A stretch of 64,000 nucleotides of DNA from Desulfobacterales bacterium (GTDB lineage Bacteria > Desulfobacterota > Desulfobulbia > Desulfobulbales > JAGXFP01), in the NCBI GenBank assembly GCA_024637225.1, contig JAGXFP010000047.1, positions 1 through 64,000 on the forward strand. The letters run 5' to 3'. Below the pieces are notes generated by a model. That model ran no database searches and had not been told where the DNA came from. It worked only from the letters and a program-made list of their open reading frames with translations. Each line of letters starts with the position of its first letter. The stretch's first letter is position 1. Positions 33,958 to 44,409 of the stretch are shown in pieces. Both the position numbers and the translations under genes were made by a program.

Positions 33958-34509
33958 TTGATGAAAAAGATTATAGGAATTGCGGCAATTTTGCTGATCT
34001 GGGTAGGATCGGCAAGCGGCGGAGTACTTAAGGTGAAAGTGCCGGTGGATGAATTGGAACAGATGAAATCCCGGCTTGAAACCCTGGAGAAGAAAAACCA
34101 GGAGCTGAAAAGCGAAATCACAACCCTGTCGCAAACCACAACCGATACCGAGATGAACGAGCGGCTGGAAAAGATGGCCCGGGAAAACGAAGGGCTCCAG
34201 CATGAGTTAAATATCCTGGCTGAGAAAACTACCGATGCCGAGATGAACGAACGGCTGGAAAAGATGGCCCGCGAAAATGAAGAGTTGCACCAGCAAGTCG
34301 CGGCTCTGGCTAAAAACCCCTCGCAAGAAGCCTCTTTAACCGAAAAAAAAGACAGCCGTATCGACGCTCTGGGCCGCGAAAATCGCCAGCTAAAAAGAAC
34401 GGTTACATCTCTTAAAGAATCGGGGACGGTACTGAGAAGCGATCGCCGAACGGCAAGACAGGTCTACTTTGAAGCGAATAAGAAATTCGCCTCCCATTCA
34501 TATAAATAA
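33958..34509 (+). CDS. Secreted/periplasmic coiled-coil protein
   Basis: Signal-like MKKIIGIAAILLIWVGSASG; heptad-rich; two tandem 30-aa units containing EMNERLEKMARENE. Confidence 0.65.
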   Translation: MMKKIIGIAAILLIWVGSASGGVLKVKVPVDELEQMKSRLETLEKKNQELKSEITTLSQTTTDTEMNERLEKMARENEGLQHELNILAEKTTDAEMNERLEKMARENEELHQQVAALAKNPSQEASLTEKKDSRIDALGRENRQLKRTVTSLKESGTVLRSDRRTARQVYFEANKKFASHSYK

Positions 34510-34635: not shown

Positions 34636-36297
34636 TCACATAGCCTGCCTGGCAAAGACGTTGCCCTTCTCGGCCGCCCGGCTGTAATGTTTCTTAACCG
34701 AGGCCGGATTCATTTTAACTCCGGAACCGGTTTCATACATGTATCCCAGAAAAAAAGCGGCCATGGAGTTGCCTTTTTCGGAGGCGGCCTGCCACCATTT
34801 AACCGCTTCGGCGTAGCTTTTCCTGGTTCCTCTGCCGCTACTCTTTAAAAACCCCAAGCGGTACTGGGCGTCTGCATTACCTTTTTGCGCCGCGTCTGCA
34901 TACAATTTTACCGCAGCGCCATCGTCCCTTTTCACGCCTTCTCCGGTTTCATACATGTAACCAAGCCTGTACTGCGCTTCTACATGGCCCTGCCCTGCCG
35001 CTAACCCGTAAAATTTAGCGGCCTCAACCATGGATTGGGGGGTGCCGTCGCCTTGGGCGTAATTTTTACCGGTTTCAAACCGGGCCTCTACATGTCCCCG
35101 TTCGGCCGCGCTCTTGTGCCAGGCAAAGGCTTTGGCCGCGTTCTTATCGACTCCGAATCCTTTCTCGTAAAATCCTGCCAGTTTATACTGGGCTTCGGCA
35201 TCCCCCGCCTCGGCGGCCGTGAGTAGAAGTTCAAGCTCCAGGGCGGCCCCGGCTTGCGCATGACCTTGTTTAGCGGCCATTTTCCACCATTTGTTTGCCT
35301 CTGTCGTGTTCTTGTCAACCGCGTTGCCCGTGGCATACATGAGACCGAGAAGATATTGCGCCTCGGCATGGCCCTTTCCGGCCGCCTGTTCAAATCGCTT
35401 AAATGCTTCGGAATCATTCTGCTGAACTCCTTTACCTTCCTTGTACATCCGCCCCATCAGAAAAACCGCATGGGGATGCTCCTGGCTCAAGGCCCCGGCA
35501 AACGCATACTGGGCCTCGACATGGCCCTGGGCGGCCGCCTTCTGATACCAGCTGATCGCCTTGATGGCATCTTGGGGGGTATCTTTCCCGGCCTCATAAA
35601 ATTTAGCGAGCTTATACTGGGCTTCAGCATTACCCCCTTCGGCGGACCTTTTAACCGCTGCGAATTCATCACCGCCGCCTGCAACCGAGGAACCACCATC
35701 GACAGCTCCCGCCTCGACAGTCACGGCGGTATCGAATTTATCGGCGAGATCGGCTTTCGCCTTCACATGCCCCTGGGCTGCGGCCTTCTTCCACAATCTG
35801 ATCGTTTCGCCATTATCCTGCTCAACCCCCGAACCCGATGCATAAAGGGAACCGAGGGCATATTGCGCTTCGGCATGGCCCAGGTCCGCCGCCTGCTCGA
35901 TGAGCCGAACCGCCGCGTGCAGGTTTTTCTCGACGCCGGCGCCGTCACGATACATCTTGCCGATCAGAAAAGCGGCATCTGGATTACCATCAAGAGCCGT
36001 GGCAAACTCATATTGGGCCTCGACATGCCCCATGGTCGCAGCCTGATGATACCAGTTGACCGCATTGGCGATACTTTTCGTCACCCCGGCTCCTTCCTCA
36101 TAGGATTTCGCCAGATAATACTGGGCCTCGACATCTCCTGATTTGGCCGCGGCGATAACCGAAGCAAAGGGGAGCCCGGCATAGCCGGCGGCCCGGGCGA
36201 ATTCGGCCGACCCAATCAGAACCCCAAAAGCAGCCGCAAGAATCAGGATAAGACGCGGCATCAATACGAGAGTTCCCAGTTTTAAAGTTTCGGACAT
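34636..36297 (-). CDS. Sel1-like (TPR-type) repeat protein
   Basis: 553 aa; many copies of the A.xGhaEAQYxLGxMYexGxGVxxD pattern; signal peptide-like N-terminus. Confidence 0.9.
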   Translation of the reverse strand: MSETLKLGTLVLMPRLILILAAAFGVLIGSAEFARAAGYAGLPFASVIAAAKSGDVEAQYYLAKSYEEGAGVTKSIANAVNWYHQAATMGHVEAQYEFATALDGNPDAAFLIGKMYRDGAGVEKNLHAAVRLIEQAADLGHAEAQYALGSLYASGSGVEQDNGETIRLWKKAAAQGHVKAKADLADKFDTAVTVEAGAVDGGSSVAGGGDEFAAVKRSAEGGNAEAQYKLAKFYEAGKDTPQDAIKAISWYQKAAAQGHVEAQYAFAGALSQEHPHAVFLMGRMYKEGKGVQQNDSEAFKRFEQAAGKGHAEAQYLLGLMYATGNAVDKNTTEANKWWKMAAKQGHAQAGAALELELLLTAAEAGDAEAQYKLAGFYEKGFGVDKNAAKAFAWHKSAAERGHVEARFETGKNYAQGDGTPQSMVEAAKFYGLAAGQGHVEAQYRLGYMYETGEGVKRDDGAAVKLYADAAQKGNADAQYRLGFLKSSGRGTRKSYAEAVKWWQAASEKGNSMAAFFLGYMYETGSGVKMNPASVKKHYSRAAEKGNVFARQAM

Positions 36298-36546: not shown

Positions 36547-37563
36547 ATGAACCTAAGAACAAGTCTTGTGAAGGGAGTGCTGCTCGGCGTCTTGCTGACA
36601 ATCCCTTTCACCGGCGGTTGTACGGGCAAGCTCAAGGAAGACAATCCTATAATTCCCGTTCGGGAGTATGAAAAAATGCTCCTCGGCAAACTTACTTCGG
36701 ACTATATAGGCAACGAAAACTGCCTTAAGGGATGTCATACCCATGACACATTAGCCCTCGATTTCAAATCGAGCACCATGGGCGACCAACTCCAACAATC
36801 CTCCCATGGCATGAAAATCGTCGACTGCGAGTCATGTCACGGCCCCGGCAGTGAACTGATGGATGAAATCGTCGGTCTCGATGTGGATAAAAACAGACAG
36901 GAGATCGTCGAAGCCCACCGGGATAACCTGATCAATTACAGTACCCTGCCGGCCGGCGCCCTCTCCCTGATCTGCCTGAAATGCCATACAACCAACGCGA
37001 CCTTTAATATTCATAACTGGAATTCCGGCGTCCATGTCTTTAACGGCGTATCCTGTTCCAACTGCCACCCGATCCATGCCGGAGCCGACCTGATTACCCC
37101 GCCCCGGGATGTTCCCGGTTTGTGCTTCTCCTGCCATATCGAATTAAAAGCCCAATTCTCTCTGCCGAGCCATCATCCGGTCAGGGAAGCCAAGATGTAC
37201 TGTGTCGACTGTCACGACCCTCATGGAACGGCAAATCCCGGTCAACTGAAAGAAATCAACGAAAAAGAGACCTGCGGACGCTGCCATACCGAAAAGACCG
37301 GTCCTTTTCTTTTCGAGCATGGCGACGTCACCGACAAATGCTCCAACTGCCACTCTCCGCACGGTTCGACCAACAATAATCTCCTGAAACTCCGGGAGCC
37401 TTTTCTTTGCAGGCAATGTCATCCGCAACATTCATCGGATGATACGCTTGCCGCCAAAAGCATGTTCAACACCAGATGTACGGATTGCCACTCGATGATC
37501 CATGGCAGCGACACACCGGGGGCAAGCACGGTTCCAACCAGCGGGGGGACTCTGACGCGATGA
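36547..37563 (+). CDS. Decaheme-type c cytochrome, DmsE/MtrA-like
   Basis: 338 aa; 9 canonical CxxCH motifs plus one CLKGCH (CX3CH); secretion signal; overlaps the MtrB-like gene by ATGA. Confidence 0.9.
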   Translation: MNLRTSLVKGVLLGVLLTIPFTGGCTGKLKEDNPIIPVREYEKMLLGKLTSDYIGNENCLKGCHTHDTLALDFKSSTMGDQLQQSSHGMKIVDCESCHGPGSELMDEIVGLDVDKNRQEIVEAHRDNLINYSTLPAGALSLICLKCHTTNATFNIHNWNSGVHVFNGVSCSNCHPIHAGADLITPPRDVPGLCFSCHIELKAQFSLPSHHPVREAKMYCVDCHDPHGTANPGQLKEINEKETCGRCHTEKTGPFLFEHGDVTDKCSNCHSPHGSTNNNLLKLREPFLCRQCHPQHSSDDTLAAKSMFNTRCTDCHSMIHGSDTPGASTVPTSGGTLTR

Positions 37564-39542
37564 AAAAACCAATCTTACTTTCAGCCATTGTATTAGTGAT
37601 TCTGATGGGAGCTTCCGTCAGTTTCGCGGATTATAAGGATATCGCCGACGGAGTAGACTCCGTCTTTAAATTCTGGGCCGGCGGCTCGCTGCGGGAAACC
37701 GACACCACCGTCAATGAAAGCTTCGCCGACCAACAATCCCCCCCTCTTCCCGAAGCAGACGGCCGAGTCGGAACCGCCAAGGCCGGCGAGTACTACTATG
37801 GCGAAAGCTCGGCCAGCGGCGGTTTCTTTTTAAAGACGGCCAAACTGCCCCAGCGCATCCACCTGGAATTGGATTATTTTAACGACAAGGAATGGTACGG
37901 AGATTTCCGCTATTCATATCTGGACTATGTGCAGATCCGGGTCTTGCCCCGCCGCCTCTATCACAACCTCGACAATATCACGATTTACGACTTCACTCCC
38001 ACCGACCCGACCTTCTCCGAAATCGAAATAAATGACCAGGGCATCGACGACTACGGATTGCGCACCGACATCAACAAGTACAAGCTCCGCTTTAAAACAC
38101 CCAATTTTCCCTTCCATCTTTATGGTAACGGAGAGACCGTAAGGCGAGCAGGCACCCGGCAGGATCGTTTTCTGGGCGGCTCCGCTTTCTTCTCTGATCT
38201 GCTCAGAACCACCGAGAGCCGTGAAGTCGACCAGGAGAAACTGGAGTACACCATTGGCGCCAACGCCCACCTGGGAATGATCGAATTCGACCTTTCCCAT
38301 AAAAACCGTAATTTCGAGAGCGACGTGGACGCCCCCACCTACGATTACACAGGCGGCACTTCCGTGCACGGCGTCACCCCGGAACTTGAGGCAACCACCG
38401 ATACCCTGAAGATCCATACTTCCCATTCGGGCCGGATTTTTGCCGCCGCCACATTTTCACAGTTGAAAAGCGAAAACACAGACAGCGGCGCCGAAGCGGA
38501 AAACACATTGAGCTACGGGGAGATATTCTGGCTGCCCGCCACTTATCTGGCGATGACCGCAAAGTTCCGCCACCAGGAAAATGAATCCAGCTCCCCCGAC
38601 ACGGTTACGGGAACCGACTGGCAGGGAAACAGCACTACTTATATCGTCAATCCCGGCGTTGTGTCCGATACAGATACCGCCATTTTCAGTATTCGCTACT
38701 CTCTTATTCCTAAAACAAACCTTAATTTCAAATACACTAAAAAGATCAAAGAGGTCGATGATCAATCCGCCCAGGACTGGAGTACACCTCCCAAAAGGAC
38801 CAAGGACGAATATGAACTTGGACTGAGCAACTGGGTTATTCCGAAGGTCAGGACTACCGCCAAGTTTATTCATACCAGGGTTTCGACCGACTTAGATCCG
38901 AACTCGATAAACAATATGCCGGATCAGACCAATCAGGTCAATCTCGGGATGACCTGGACCATAACCCCTAAAATCATGACCTACGGCAACGCTTATGTGG
39001 CCAGGGAAGACACGGACAGCAACCGAATGGGAGGCGGCATCACCAACGCCAACGAGGCCGAAGCGTTGCGGCAGCGATATCTGTTAAGCATCGCCTTTAT
39101 GCCCACTGACAAGTTGACTATTTCACCCACCTATACTTATTTGTCCGACGAGGAAAGCCGGGATATAGTCTGGAACGCCGCGATCGACTCCGATTACACC
39201 AATGAACAGACCGCCCATAACTACGCACTAAACCTGCTCTACATGCCCGCCGAGATACTGGCCTTCAACTGTTCGGTAGACTACACAACAAGCGACGGCA
39301 ATTACTACCCGAGTCATCCCTTTATCGCTTCGACCGGCAGTTACAACACCGTCGAAGTCGCTCAGTTTTCCAGGGTGCGCACAGAGGAGATCAATGTGCG
39401 TTTCGATACCGATTTAGACCTCGACCATGGTTGGGGAATCGGCCTGAATCTCCGCTACACCGATTGGCGGGATGACTCATTCGACAATCCGGCCGATGGC
39501 GAATTCCTGGGCGGTCTGCTGAAGTTAACCAAGGTTATGTGA
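37560..39542 (+). CDS. MtrB/PioB-like outer membrane beta-barrel protein
   Basis: Start ATG 37560 overlaps the cytochrome stop. Signal peptide MKKPILLSAIVLVILMGASVSFA; alternating amphipathic strands; adjacent to MtrA-like cytochrome. Confidence 0.85.
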   Translation: MKKPILLSAIVLVILMGASVSFADYKDIADGVDSVFKFWAGGSLRETDTTVNESFADQQSPPLPEADGRVGTAKAGEYYYGESSASGGFFLKTAKLPQRIHLELDYFNDKEWYGDFRYSYLDYVQIRVLPRRLYHNLDNITIYDFTPTDPTFSEIEINDQGIDDYGLRTDINKYKLRFKTPNFPFHLYGNGETVRRAGTRQDRFLGGSAFFSDLLRTTESREVDQEKLEYTIGANAHLGMIEFDLSHKNRNFESDVDAPTYDYTGGTSVHGVTPELEATTDTLKIHTSHSGRIFAAATFSQLKSENTDSGAEAENTLSYGEIFWLPATYLAMTAKFRHQENESSSPDTVTGTDWQGNSTTYIVNPGVVSDTDTAIFSIRYSLIPKTNLNFKYTKKIKEVDDQSAQDWSTPPKRTKDEYELGLSNWVIPKVRTTAKFIHTRVSTDLDPNSINNMPDQTNQVNLGMTWTITPKIMTYGNAYVAREDTDSNRMGGGITNANEAEALRQRYLLSIAFMPTDKLTISPTYTYLSDEESRDIVWNAAIDSDYTNEQTAHNYALNLLYMPAEILAFNCSVDYTTSDGNYYPSHPFIASTGSYNTVEVAQFSRVRTEEINVRFDTDLDLDHGWGIGLNLRYTDWRDDSFDNPADGEFLGGLLKLTKVM

Positions 39543-39576
39543 GCTAAATCAAATCCACGCTAAGGATGAACAGGCC

Positions 39577-40482
39577 ATGCTAAAACTTCTTCTTGGTGCA
39601 GCCGTTCTGCTCTTCGCCAATATGCATCAGGTTGCCATGGCGGAGACAGTCGGTGCTTTAATGCCGGCAAAAGATATCCCTTATTATGTGGAGATTCACG
39701 ACACCATGACCCGGGAGTTGCAAAGCCTGAACGCGAATTCCAATGTTATACTCCAAAGACCTTCACCGAACGTGCGGGCCTGGAGCAATGCCACCCGTAA
39801 ACTGGTTATCCTGGGATCGGAAGTTATTGTCGCCTACGGTTCGGCTACGGCGATCTGCGTCGGCAGCGAAAACGAAGATGTGCCGGTGGTATACAGCGGC
39901 GCTTACAAACCGGCCGGGTGCGGGATTGCCGGCAAGGTGACCGGCATGGAATCGACTATTCCACTGGATAGCCTGATCGACAACCTTAAAAAAATCTCCA
40001 AGTTTTCTACACTGGCGATTCTCTATGCCAAGGAAGAGCAGGGTTCGATAATGCAGATGGAAGAAGCAGCCGCCCTGGCCGTTAAAGCCGGAGCCGAAGT
40101 TATCAAAATAGATGTCCACGATGAGAGTTCTTTTGCCCTTCCCGATGTCGATGCGGTCTTTTTGACCGGAGCCGCGACCATCAATCAAAAAGAAAACCTC
40201 GAAGCCATCATAACAAGCGCCCGCGCCAAGAAAATCGCCAGCGCCTCGGTCTTGAGCGGCACCTGTGAACTCGGCGTGCTTATATCGTTGTCGGCCAACC
40301 CGGAACATCAGGGTATAGGGACCGCGAAAATGGTGGCGGCAATCCTGGATGGAAAAAGTCCCGGGGACATCCCGCCCGATAAAAACCCGGAGGCCGAGAT
40401 GACCATCAACCTCAAGGAGGCCAAGGAACTTGGTTTCAGTGTCCCCTTTGAACTGCTCGGTACCGCCAGGTTGGTAAAATAG
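39577..40482 (+). CDS. ABC transporter substrate-binding protein-like (TrpX/PF04392-type)
   Basis: Signal peptide then TVGALMPAKDIPYYVEIHDTMTREL...EVIVAYGSATAICVG...DVPVVYSG; no ABC permease/ATPase nearby. Confidence 0.7.
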   Translation: MLKLLLGAAVLLFANMHQVAMAETVGALMPAKDIPYYVEIHDTMTRELQSLNANSNVILQRPSPNVRAWSNATRKLVILGSEVIVAYGSATAICVGSENEDVPVVYSGAYKPAGCGIAGKVTGMESTIPLDSLIDNLKKISKFSTLAILYAKEEQGSIMQMEEAAALAVKAGAEVIKIDVHDESSFALPDVDAVFLTGAATINQKENLEAIITSARAKKIASASVLSGTCELGVLISLSANPEHQGIGTAKMVAAILDGKSPGDIPPDKNPEAEMTINLKEAKELGFSVPFELLGTARLVK

Positions 40483-40673
40483 TGTTTTATAAATTATCAT
40501 CTCGCTTCAACAGGCATGTTTCCGACCAGTAAATCATCAATCGGCGCATACCGAACGGTTGGGTCACTGCCAAGGCTTTAATTTTTATATCATCAATTTT
40601 ATCGCGTAAATATCTGGAAGGATGAATGGCCGCAAAGTCCCGTAAACCGGCTTGGCCGTGAAAGGAGGAAGTT

Positions 40674-43034
40674 ATGATGTCTGGTAAAAAAGTGATCCTG
40701 TTGGCCGCCTCTCTATTGGCTATGTCACTTTGGGGTTGCAGCACCGATTTCGATGCCGAAAACAATTCGGCCGCAAGCGATGCCACGATATCCGAAGCGA
40801 CCCTGGCTGGGGCGGGAAACTGCGTGGGCTGCCATGAAGATGCCGATCTGAGCACCGCCGACAGCCCCCAGGCCGTAGCCGATTATCTGGCCGGTAAGCA
40901 TGTCATCCATAGCACAAGCATCAATGCCGGTTCTGACTCCGGTTGTCTGGAATGTCATGACCCGCTGGGTGACGGTCCCAGCCTGGAGCAATACATTACT
41001 GACCCGGCTAATATCCCCCTTGATGGACTGGCCGCTGTAACCTGCGAAACCTGCCACGGCGGCGGTGGGGACCATGTAAGCGGGCAACTTCCGGTTCCCT
41101 ATGTAACTCCCGACTACAACCGCTGCGGCCAGTGCCACAACGCAGACGTTGACCACCACAAATACCACCCGGAAGCTGACAGTATTGTCGAGAAAGTCAG
41201 CGCTTCGCCCCATCTAACCGGGGTCCGGAAGACCGAAGCGCCTTGCGCAAAATGCCACTCCGATGAAGGCGCCAAACTCTACAAGAATGTAGTCGGTATT
41301 CCTGCCGTTATTGAAACAAATGCTTCCGCTGCAATAACGAAAGCTTCACCTATCCAGTGCCGGACTTGTCATCAGGCGCACAGTCTTGAACTGCTGCTTG
41401 CCGCCGATGAAAACTATCCGGGTTCAGCCGAATTCAATACCTGCACCAACTGCCACCAGACAGATTATGCCTACCACGGCGAAACCGGTCCGGTGGGACT
41501 CGATCTCGCCAGGGTGATCTACGATACCCATTTTGACGATCCATTTACCCCGGATATAGAAGGTTACAACCTGGGACCCGATCATGATCTGGATGATGAT
41601 CCGCTTACTACTATTTTTGGTTCTGCCAGCGAGCGGGTCTGCCGCGACTGCCATGACGTCCATGAGGCCGATACAACCATAAACAAGCAATGGGCCAACT
41701 CCAGCCATGGCGGAAATATCGCCCAGCTCAAAGCTGCGGCGGTTGTAGCAGCGGGCACCGCGGAAGCTGCCCTGACCGCGGGAGTTGACAGCACCACCGG
41801 CTCGGACTTCCCCGGCGACCTTACCACCGGCGATGCCTGGGAACATTACGACTGGAAAGACACCACCAATCGTGACACCTGCCAGCGCTGCCATACCGCA
41901 ACCGGGGCCAGGAACTACCTTGAGGCGATGATCTCTCTGAATGACGACGATACAACCAACGATATCACCTACGACCCAATCAATAATGACTTCAGTCACC
42001 TGGCCGGCAATGCCCAGGAGATGCTCTACTGCTGGGGCTGCCATGCCAACAACTCCGGCGATCTGCGTAATCCCGGCGGACGCACCATCGAATACGTCGA
42101 TGAGGACGGCGAGCTGCTGCCCGAGTTGCCGGTACTGCCCGATCTGGGCAAGTCCAATGTCTGCAATTCCTGCCACAGCGGCCGAGGCAATATGGATTCC
42201 TATGGTTTGAGCGGAAACCCGTCAACGCCCATGACCTCCGCACCCGGTTACACCGGCAAGAACGTCACCGCAACCCACTACCTGGCCGCTTCGGCAACCA
42301 TTTACCAGGCTCAAACCAAGGTCGGCTATCAGTACCCGGATTTGTCTTACGCCGATAAGTCTTTTTATAGTCATAAATCAATCGGAATTAACTCCGACTC
42401 TCCCGAAACAGGATCCGGGCCTTGTGCTTCCTGTCATCTTGAGGACTCCAATCATCGCCTGCAGATAATCGAAAGGGATGCCGCCGGGATTATTACCGAG
42501 TTAAAGGCCGCGATCTGCGTTTCCTGCCACAACGGGAAAAGCACCCTATTCGTGGCCGCGAGCCTGGTTGGCACAACCCAGGATATTTGGAATGATGTCA
42601 CCGAAACTGCGGTATCGACCACGGTTACTGCTCAGCTGGTCGATGATTCGGTTGCCGAACTCAACTCCAAGTCCGACGGCTTCCATGAAGCACTGGCTAT
42701 TGTCGCCGAGGAATTAGCCGCCGATGGACTTAATTTCACCCCGAATTCATACCCCTATTTTAACGGCCCCAGCTGGGTCAACGAAGGAACCTTCGGAGCG
42801 GCCCATAACCTTAACTATCTTTATAATGAACCGGGCGCTTACGCCCATAACCGCTTTTACGCCAAACGGCTGATCTTCGACTCGATCGACTGGCTGGACG
42901 ACGGAGTGCTTGACGGGACCATTAACATCGATGCCGTGACCTACCCTGACGCAGCCGCCTGGTTCGGGGCGGCCGAGACAGCCGATTCCACGGCCGTCCC
43001 GTCCATTGCCGTGGGTGATGCCAACCGACCCTGA
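40674..43034 (+). CDS. Outer-membrane-type lipoprotein multiheme cytochrome c (13 CxxCH)
   Basis: N-terminal lipobox-like LLAMSLWGC; 13 CxxCH motifs counted in the translation; RBS AAAGGAGG upstream. Confidence 0.9.
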   Translation: MMSGKKVILLAASLLAMSLWGCSTDFDAENNSAASDATISEATLAGAGNCVGCHEDADLSTADSPQAVADYLAGKHVIHSTSINAGSDSGCLECHDPLGDGPSLEQYITDPANIPLDGLAAVTCETCHGGGGDHVSGQLPVPYVTPDYNRCGQCHNADVDHHKYHPEADSIVEKVSASPHLTGVRKTEAPCAKCHSDEGAKLYKNVVGIPAVIETNASAAITKASPIQCRTCHQAHSLELLLAADENYPGSAEFNTCTNCHQTDYAYHGETGPVGLDLARVIYDTHFDDPFTPDIEGYNLGPDHDLDDDPLTTIFGSASERVCRDCHDVHEADTTINKQWANSSHGGNIAQLKAAAVVAAGTAEAALTAGVDSTTGSDFPGDLTTGDAWEHYDWKDTTNRDTCQRCHTATGARNYLEAMISLNDDDTTNDITYDPINNDFSHLAGNAQEMLYCWGCHANNSGDLRNPGGRTIEYVDEDGELLPELPVLPDLGKSNVCNSCHSGRGNMDSYGLSGNPSTPMTSAPGYTGKNVTATHYLAASATIYQAQTKVGYQYPDLSYADKSFYSHKSIGINSDSPETGSGPCASCHLEDSNHRLQIIERDAAGIITELKAAICVSCHNGKSTLFVAASLVGTTQDIWNDVTETAVSTTVTAQLVDDSVAELNSKSDGFHEALAIVAEELAADGLNFTPNSYPYFNGPSWVNEGTFGAAHNLNYLYNEPGAYAHNRFYAKRLIFDSIDWLDDGVLDGTINIDAVTYPDAAAWFGAAETADSTAVPSIAVGDANRP

Positions 43035-43058
43035 TTGAATGAAACATCATATGATCCA

Positions 43059-43116
43059 AAGGTACCGTTATTCCGCTATGAGAGTGATTACGGGTGCCTT
43101 TATTGTTTTTTTATTT
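43059..43116 (+). terminator. Possible rho-independent terminator
   Basis: AAAGGTACCG ... CGGGTGCCTTT followed by ATTGTTTTTTTA; imperfect stem. Confidence 0.45.
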
Positions 43117-43149
43117 ATAAACAAATAAATACTCCTGGCGGAGAAAGAG

Positions 43150-44409
43150 ATGCGCAATAAAAATAATCCACTGATCGTTAAAATACTGATCTTGACCGCA
43201 ATGCTCTGCTTCTCGGTCAGCGCAATGGCAGCCGATCCGGCCGAACTTGTCAGGCTGCGCCATTCATTCGAGTCAGAAAAATCCCGGGTTTCAAGTGAAA
43301 GCGGGCGCCGGGATCTGGTCAACAACTATATTCAGCAGTTGACTGATCTGGCCACCGATCTGAGGATTTACAAAAACGACCGGGAGGGGACTAACGCGGT
43401 CCGTCATGAAATCCGCAATGCTAAAAAAGAACTGGAAGCCGATCTTTCCCTTCCCAAGCCGGAACAGGAACCCACCAAGGCGCAAGCCCCCCCTAGGGCC
43501 GAACCGGAGCCGGTTCCAGTGGACAAACTGGGGCCGACAGTGACCGAATCTGCTACAAAGCCCGAGCCTGGATCGATACCCGAACTAACTGGCGGAAAAT
43601 TCGCTACCAAGCCCGGGCCGGAACCGGCCCCCCTGGACACCAGACCGGAAGCCAGACCCGCACCCCGACCGCAAGCAGATACTCCGGTTACCACGCCGAT
43701 AGCTAAGCCCATGTCCGAGCCTGAACCGCCAAAGGTCAATACTGCGCCTAAAACAAAATCCGCTCCCGCACCGGTGTCTAGCCCTGCAGAGACAGAAACC
43801 AGGCAAGCGCCGAAAAGAGTATCCAAACCGCAGCCGGAATCGGCAGCAAGGAAGAGGGCTCCTGAACCAGAGCCTAAGCCGGCACCAAAACCGGTGGTGA
43901 CCAACGCTGTCAAGCCCGCCGCGACCCCGGTTCCCGCAATACCAGCTCCCAAACCGGTGGTTAAGAAGGCGGCTCCGAAACCACAGCCTGTGCCAGCCGA
44001 GGAGAAAAAAGCCGCTCCCCCAGAAAAACACAGTCCCCAGACCCATGTCAGCAGCGAACAGGGTTTGGCCGGCCCGCCGGGCGTCAATGGTAAAAACGTC
44101 TATACTTTCGAGCTGCCCGGTATAGGAGAAACAACCACTCTCGCTTTCTGGGCAACCGGCAAGGAATCCCTCGATTCATACGGCAAGGTTTGGCTGATTA
44201 CCCCGGAAGGCCGCAGGAACATCCTCGGCATCTGGAAGGAAAGCTATCTTGATAAACCCTCCACCGAGGTTTATTCATATTACAACCTGAAACCGATAGC
44301 CGAGGATATAACCCGGAAGGTTACAACCCCCGGCACCTATAAAGTTGAATTCGAGTGGACCAACGGCAAGGACCCGTTAGTTATCTACCGGGTGGAAATA
44401 ACCTCCTGA
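43150..44409 (+). CDS. Pro/Lys/Glu-rich exported protein with conserved-looking C-terminal domain
   Basis: Signal peptide; ~190-aa low-complexity P-x-P-E/K region; globular C-terminus VYTFELPGIGETTTLAFWATGKESLDSYGKVWLITPEGRRNILGIWKESY. Confidence 0.75.
   Translation: MRNKNNPLIVKILILTAMLCFSVSAMAADPAELVRLRHSFESEKSRVSSESGRRDLVNNYIQQLTDLATDLRIYKNDREGTNAVRHEIRNAKKELEADLSLPKPEQEPTKAQAPPRAEPEPVPVDKLGPTVTESATKPEPGSIPELTGGKFATKPGPEPAPLDTRPEARPAPRPQADTPVTTPIAKPMSEPEPPKVNTAPKTKSAPAPVSSPAETETRQAPKRVSKPQPESAARKRAPEPEPKPAPKPVVTNAVKPAATPVPAIPAPKPVVKKAAPKPQPVPAEEKKAAPPEKHSPQTHVSSEQGLAGPPGVNGKNVYTFELPGIGETTTLAFWATGKESLDSYGKVWLITPEGRRNILGIWKESYLDKPSTEVYSYYNLKPIAEDITRKVTTPGTYKVEFEWTNGKDPLVIYRVEITS

Follow-up and report, generated by a model that had tools for sequence, protein, structure and literature searches.

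An MtrAB-type gene cluster with a linked binding protein and a Pcc-type cytochrome: a putative hybrid electron conduit in a Desulfobulbales genome

The stretch of DNA analysed here (the window) comprises 64,000 nucleotides of contig JAGXFP010000047.1 from a Desulfobulbales metagenome-assembled genome (MAG; 3.28 Mb, 74 contigs). Between positions 36547 and 44409 it carries five genes, referred to as A, B, S, C13 and P, a locus which judging by its sequences probably encodes an outer-membrane protein wire for electron exchange with minerals or adjacent cells. A and B correspond to the cytochrome and barrel of Mtr conduits, S is an exported binding protein and C13 is a 13-haem lipoprotein related to the surface cytochromes of porin-cytochrome (Pcc) conduits. 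The reading favoured here, with a probability of about two in three, is that A-B and C13 form a hybrid Mtr/Pcc conduit to which S belongs as a dedicated binding protein, likeliest with a sensory role. The locus is regarded as a hybrid because a cytochrome of the Pcc family sits behind MtrAB in the absence of a Pcc trio. A first-pass annotation of the window had proposed an MtrA/MtrB-type conduit across the outer membrane with an adjoining multihaem lipoprotein, and this is still the best reading of the locus.

All five open reading frames of the proposed cluster are found on the plus strand. A shares its last 4 nt with B, 34 nt separate B from S, 191 nt separate S from C13 and 115 nt separate C13 from P. 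A holds nine CxxCH motifs and one CX3CH motif, C13 holds exactly 13 CxxCH motifs, and S and P hold none. An independently assembled MAG of the same genus (JARGFN010000090.1; L041/L059, where L, G, C and f denote loci, genomes, contigs and families, and G000 is the window genome) has the order A-B-S-C13 followed by the start of P, where its contig ends, and this shared order argues that the cluster is no assembly accident. A terminator scan of the cluster stays at chance level and a promoter scan returns 12 against a shuffle mean of 6.7, from which the limit of the operon is not clear.

A (36547-37563, +) encodes a multihaem cytochrome which scores 239.4 bits on the DmsE/MtrA model TIGR03508 (curated cut-off 192.2) and matches the MtrA chain 6r2q_A (phmmer 7.4e-39) with colinear haem sites, so that its designation as MtrA/DmsE-like is borne out. 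With nine CxxCH motifs and one CX3CH motif, A is the decahaem MtrA/DmsE-family cytochrome that is expected of an Mtr core. The CX3CH motif occupies the haem-1 position, where it aligns with the first CxxCH in the aligned part of MtrA (6R2Q), and is invariant among A homologues (27/27); covalent haem binding by CX3-4CH motifs has been reported, as cited in PMC4245776. A Gly/Ala-Cys lipobox near the end of the signal peptide is common to A homologues, which suggests that they are lipidated and that A is a likely lipoprotein. On the OmcK-type model NF041028, A reaches 224.7 bits, under the curated cut-off of 325.

B (37560-39542, +) is predicted to be a 26-strand outer-membrane barrel of the MtrB/PioB and OmcL (GSU2204) superfamily. 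In direct hidden Markov model (HMM) searches the window B matches neither PF11854 nor TIGR03509, which taken alone would count against the MtrB/PioB-like barrel of the first-pass annotation. Among 16 aligned B homologues, however, seven match PF11854 (best 1.4e-13), four match TIGR03509 and all match the GSU2204/OmcL model NF041027, on which the window B itself scores 57.6 bits (curated cut-off 350). The AlphaFold2 model of B (predicted local distance difference test score, pLDDT, 76.8) contains 26 long strands, counted from the DSSP string, and in a Foldseek search against the PDB its top match is MtrB (E 1.4e-19). In the VIA alignment the model superimposes onto MtrB (6r2q_B) with Z 23.5 and a root mean square deviation of 3.0 over 557 residues, compared to Z 15.1 for the next unrelated barrel. 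The homologues' HMM matches and the structure together outweigh the objection raised by the direct searches, and B as modelled is the MtrB/PioB-fold barrel which stands beside the MtrA-type cytochrome in an Mtr core. A PDB sequence search with the B-family profile gave no match, and a scan of the genome contigs with B as query found two loci only. Distant B-like barrels in seven genomes (G104, G227, G241, G346, G392, G315 and G188) are read through one in-frame TGA, in agreement with the selenoprotein note in NF041027.

S (39577-40482, +) is an exported binding protein of the PF04392 family (ABC_sub_bind, TrpX-like), scoring 80.4 bits against a gathering cut-off of 25.9. Among 77 relatives, B and S occur together in 20, S alone in two and neither in 55 (Fisher p 1.6e-16, uncorrected for shared ancestry); in both relatives with S alone, S lies on a short contig that starts or ends inside the gene. 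S is the next gene after B on the same strand in 26/26 testable genomes, which are drawn from the 77 relatives and seven distant genomes of the phylum and have a B-S join unbroken by a contig end. The conserved unit is A-B-S. The initial call of a solute-binding protein holds as to the identity of S, which is a near-obligate third member of the locus rather than an insertion. Among those neighbours of S that were scanned, no ABC permease or ATPase genes were recognised, which shifts the balance from uptake towards a sensory or structural role. From its neighbourhoods, S is likeliest a periplasmic binding protein dedicated to the A-B conduit.

The genes downstream of S vary by lineage and include signalling genes in most relatives. 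In families f3, f4, f5, f8, f13 and f14, S is followed by a PhnD-like protein (PF12974) and a histidine kinase with a single CxxCH at residue 89, ahead of its HAMP domain, and this arrangement of PhnD and haem-c kinase is present at 12 relative loci. A receiver protein is found downstream of S in L082, L083 and L085, and a chemoreceptor follows S directly or one gene further in L047, L048 and L086. At L111 of G004, the S-PhnD-kinase set exists in the absence of A-B. The window, its family f1, f2 and f9 have no signalling gene after S, so that the sensory role of S is argued from the relatives. The window genome does encode a PhnD-like protein, a haem-c histidine kinase (CSSCH at residue 89) and a sigma-54 response regulator elsewhere (L030:2093-6408, G000:C4), adjoining multihaem genes. 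These neighbourhoods suggest that S likeliest reports a ligand or the state of the conduit to signal transduction and is less likely to serve nutrient uptake. A more far-reaching proposal, which we consider doubtful, is that A-B-S is a sensing electron conduit whose dedicated binding protein informs a haem-c kinase or chemoreceptor about the extracellular partner, with Pcc surface cytochromes being swapped in to suit each niche.

C13 (40674-43034, +) has the lipobox LWGC, matches PF22113 (2e-22) and has no match to the OmcA/MtrC model TIGR03507, so that the cytochrome which would complete an Mtr operon is absent from the window cluster. Its homologues are the third gene in trios of a barrel of ~400 aa, an 8-10-haem cytochrome and a 9-17-haem lipoprotein at nine loci (G000:C57, G017, G051:C2, G033, G311:C66, G424, G293, G100:C18 and G224); the middle cytochrome in L088 has 7 CxxCH motifs. 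Three of the small barrels were compared and are mutually homologous with a C-terminal Phe, features of sequence on which their designation as putative barrels is based. C13 shares 34.8% identity with its paralogue on C57, and its homology to the third genes of the trios places it in the Pcc/Oet-type family, a placement made via these genes and not by comparison with the named Oet/Omc proteins themselves. The small barrel and 8-10-haem periplasmic cytochrome of a Pcc/Oet conduit are absent beside the window C13 and present at C57. PDB sequence searches with C13 and its profile gave no match. C13 is accordingly assigned, on its predicted features, as a Pcc-type surface cytochrome and not an MtrC; the family to which it belongs is that of the Pcc-type trios.

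The trio on C57 (L033:3812-10992), which consists of a small barrel, a 10-haem and a 13-haem gene, lies directly beside an OmcA/MtrC-family decahaem gene, and MtrC-like genes adjoin a Pcc-type trio in G311:C66 (L104) and G033:C3 (L112) as well. On a single contig of G224 (L084, 2681-15724), a complete Pcc-type trio lies within ~6 kb of A-B-S.

The expected linkage of the 13-haem gene in relatives is seen in part. The order A-B-S-C13 is kept in the sister species, a 12-haem C13 homologue lies 26 nt downstream of S in G051, a 13-haem homologue is divergent from A in G311 and a further homologue lies ~4.5 kb off in G003, past the coiled-coil and Sel1 genes; most other A-B-S loci have no C13, which implies that it is not needed by the A-B core. 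The MtrAB-linked copies are not grouped in a tree of the family. In approximately unbiased (AU) tests a single clade of all five MtrAB-linked genes is rejected (p 0.003), with p 0.033 for four, whereas a clade of the best three is not rejected (p 0.074), values to be read in light of long branches, uneven composition and an adjacency which is possibly ancestral. The association of C13 with A-B-S is recurrent, and no claim is made as to the number of origins or independent recruitment.

P (43150-44409, +) encodes an exported protein rich in Pro, whose C-terminal domain spans ~105 aa, and has no Pfam or NCBIfam match. P or its C-terminal domain is found in 14/77 relatives, mostly unlinked to A-B-S, and its proximity to A-B-S is confined to the window genus and G012; it is present in G002, where no B was found, and a second copy is encoded in the window genome. 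This distribution speaks against its proposed role as a cell-wall-spanning or cytochrome-tethering component, and P is accessory at most and probably not core. The idea that P spans the periplasm for the conduit in the manner of TonB was rejected, with no TonB match and poor linkage.

The analysis itself establishes gene content and order, the families and their conservation, and for B a modelled barrel; from these we infer a complex in which the decahaem A, probably lipid-anchored at the periplasmic face, threads the 26-strand barrel B, so that electrons would cross the outer membrane via A inside B. C13 most likely would replace MtrC as the terminal or docking cytochrome at the outer face, and S may report a ligand or the state of the conduit to signal transduction. 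Electrons could leave the cell for minerals or electrodes, or enter it during syntrophy. The host genome encodes dsrA (578 bits, cut-off 393) and is therefore likely to be that of a sulfate reducer. MtrAB is able to pass electrons in proteoliposomes without MtrC (PMC4245776) and the surface lipoprotein of Geobacter conduits is often replaced while the rest of the cluster is kept (PMC6148476), which together make a hybrid conduit plausible.

Several observations weigh against such a hybrid conduit. The lipobox of the window's own A has Thr at -3, the window B misses PF11854, S has no kinase or chemoreceptor after it in the window's own clade, and C13 is lacking at most A-B-S loci. The gap of 191 nt between S and C13 permits a separate C13 transcript, and the structure model of C13 (from a nine-row alignment) reached a pLDDT of only 39.6 and was not used, which leaves its fold and docking conjectural. 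In addition, the real partner of A-B could be the OmcA/MtrC-family decahaem cytochrome encoded on C57 (L033:8917-10974), which at 280 bits on TIGR03507 (cut-off 209.3) is the sole protein of the window genome above that cut-off, with C13 being an independent accessory or spare copy. Such a partnership has been proposed for Desulfuromonas acetexigens, published Desulfobacterota carry mtrC away from mtrAB (PMC12133095), and the gap ahead of C13 would fit this explanation. However, the MtrC gene of C57, like the MtrC-like genes of G311:C66 and G033:C3, adjoins a Pcc trio and is thus linked to Pcc rather than MtrAB, whereas C13-family genes are neighbours of A-B-S in the window genus, in G051 and in G311, and the C57 partner is considered somewhat unlikely.

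The direction of flow is a separate matter. An inward conduit, in which a partner cell or Fe(II) supplies electrons for sulfate reduction, is somewhat less likely than not: dsrA is present and high expression of the related OmcKL pair has been reported for HotSeep-1, a sulfate-reducing partner (PMC10553843), but the sequence does not fix the direction and homologous systems run either way. It is improbable that A-B-S works chiefly in sensing or energy taxis, as a module in which a haem-c histidine kinase or chemoreceptor reads, through S, the redox or ligand state of a minor conduit that is no respiratory route. The PhnD and haem-c kinase genes of the 12 relative loci, the A-B-free set in L111, the receivers and chemoreceptors downstream of S and the window genome's own set at L030 would all suit such a module, but the window, f1, f2 and f9 lack any signalling gene at this position and the 13-haem surface cytochrome in the cluster suits respiration. 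That S, C13 and P merely happen to adjoin mtrAB is highly improbable, as the adjacency of S in every testable genome excludes chance for S, and the sister MAG and G051 speak against it for C13; the patchy occurrence of C13 and the mostly unlinked P point the other way, and for P itself a chance neighbourhood is the likeliest explanation. The hybrid conduit with a dedicated S remains the preferred reading.

Upstream of A, the window encodes an exported coiled-coil protein (33958-34509, +) and an exported Sel1-repeat protein (34636-36297, -; PF08238 2.6e-91), which are kept near A-B-S in the window family f1, f2 and f9 and have homologues in the L041-L046 loci. The window genome has a further large set of cytochromes with 16-, 26- and 67-haem proteins, in keeping with electron exchange beyond the cell. 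These include a protein of 3,063 aa that holds 67 CxxCH motifs and has only weak TIGR03508 similarity (L032:4141-13329, -; G000:C5) and 16-haem and 26-haem genes side by side at two loci (L030:10844-14116, G000:C4; L031:6947-10218, G000:C9). A membrane cytochrome of 488 aa (L040:10009-11472, G000:C3), which has 5 CxxCH motifs and a NapC/NirT domain, is a candidate for an ImcH/CymA-like partner that oxidises quinol.

The means by which a cell finds and selects its extracellular electron partners are still largely an open question, and A-B-S gives a concrete, testable link between a wire and its control. The mix of Mtr and Pcc parts suggests that two separately evolved conduit types can swap surface cytochromes, and surveys that require a full mtrCAB or a full Pcc cluster would overlook such hybrid loci. 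Both mtrAB in Desulfobacterota (published in 2025; PMC12133095) and OmcKL in syntrophic sulfate reducers (published in 2023; PMC10553843) are known. No report was found in the open-access literature searched of a binding protein linked to MtrAB, of S as a constant third member of such a locus, of mtrAB followed by a surface cytochrome of Pcc type or of a linkage of S to haem-c kinases and chemoreceptors. The gene order, unrecognised at first, has an A-B-S core that recurs in relatives.

Like Shewanella MtrCAB (PDB 6R2Q), the window locus has a decahaem MtrA-family gene beside a 26-strand barrel whose best structural match is MtrB. Unlike it, the locus has a 13-haem lipoprotein of Pcc type, and no MtrC, as the linked third cytochrome, S is encoded between, and A shows signs of lipidation along with a CX3CH motif at haem 1. 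The mtrAB genes of Desulfuromonas acetexigens and other Desulfobacterota are likewise paired, and mtrC lies elsewhere in the genome, whereas S, its signalling neighbours and a Pcc-type cytochrome in the mtrAB operon are undescribed in the available part of that account (PMC12133095). A and B show moderate-to-weak HMM matches to OmcK/OmcL (GSU2203/GSU2204; OmcKL of HotSeep-1, PMC10553843) but fall below the curated cut-offs and are therefore not classed as members. With the Pcc/Oet/Ext conduits (OmcB-type, OetABI, extEFG; PMC6148476, PMC10553843) the locus shares the homology of C13 to the third gene of the trio, one of which is carried on C57, whereas their barrels are of ~400 aa and the window barrel is of the large MtrB type.

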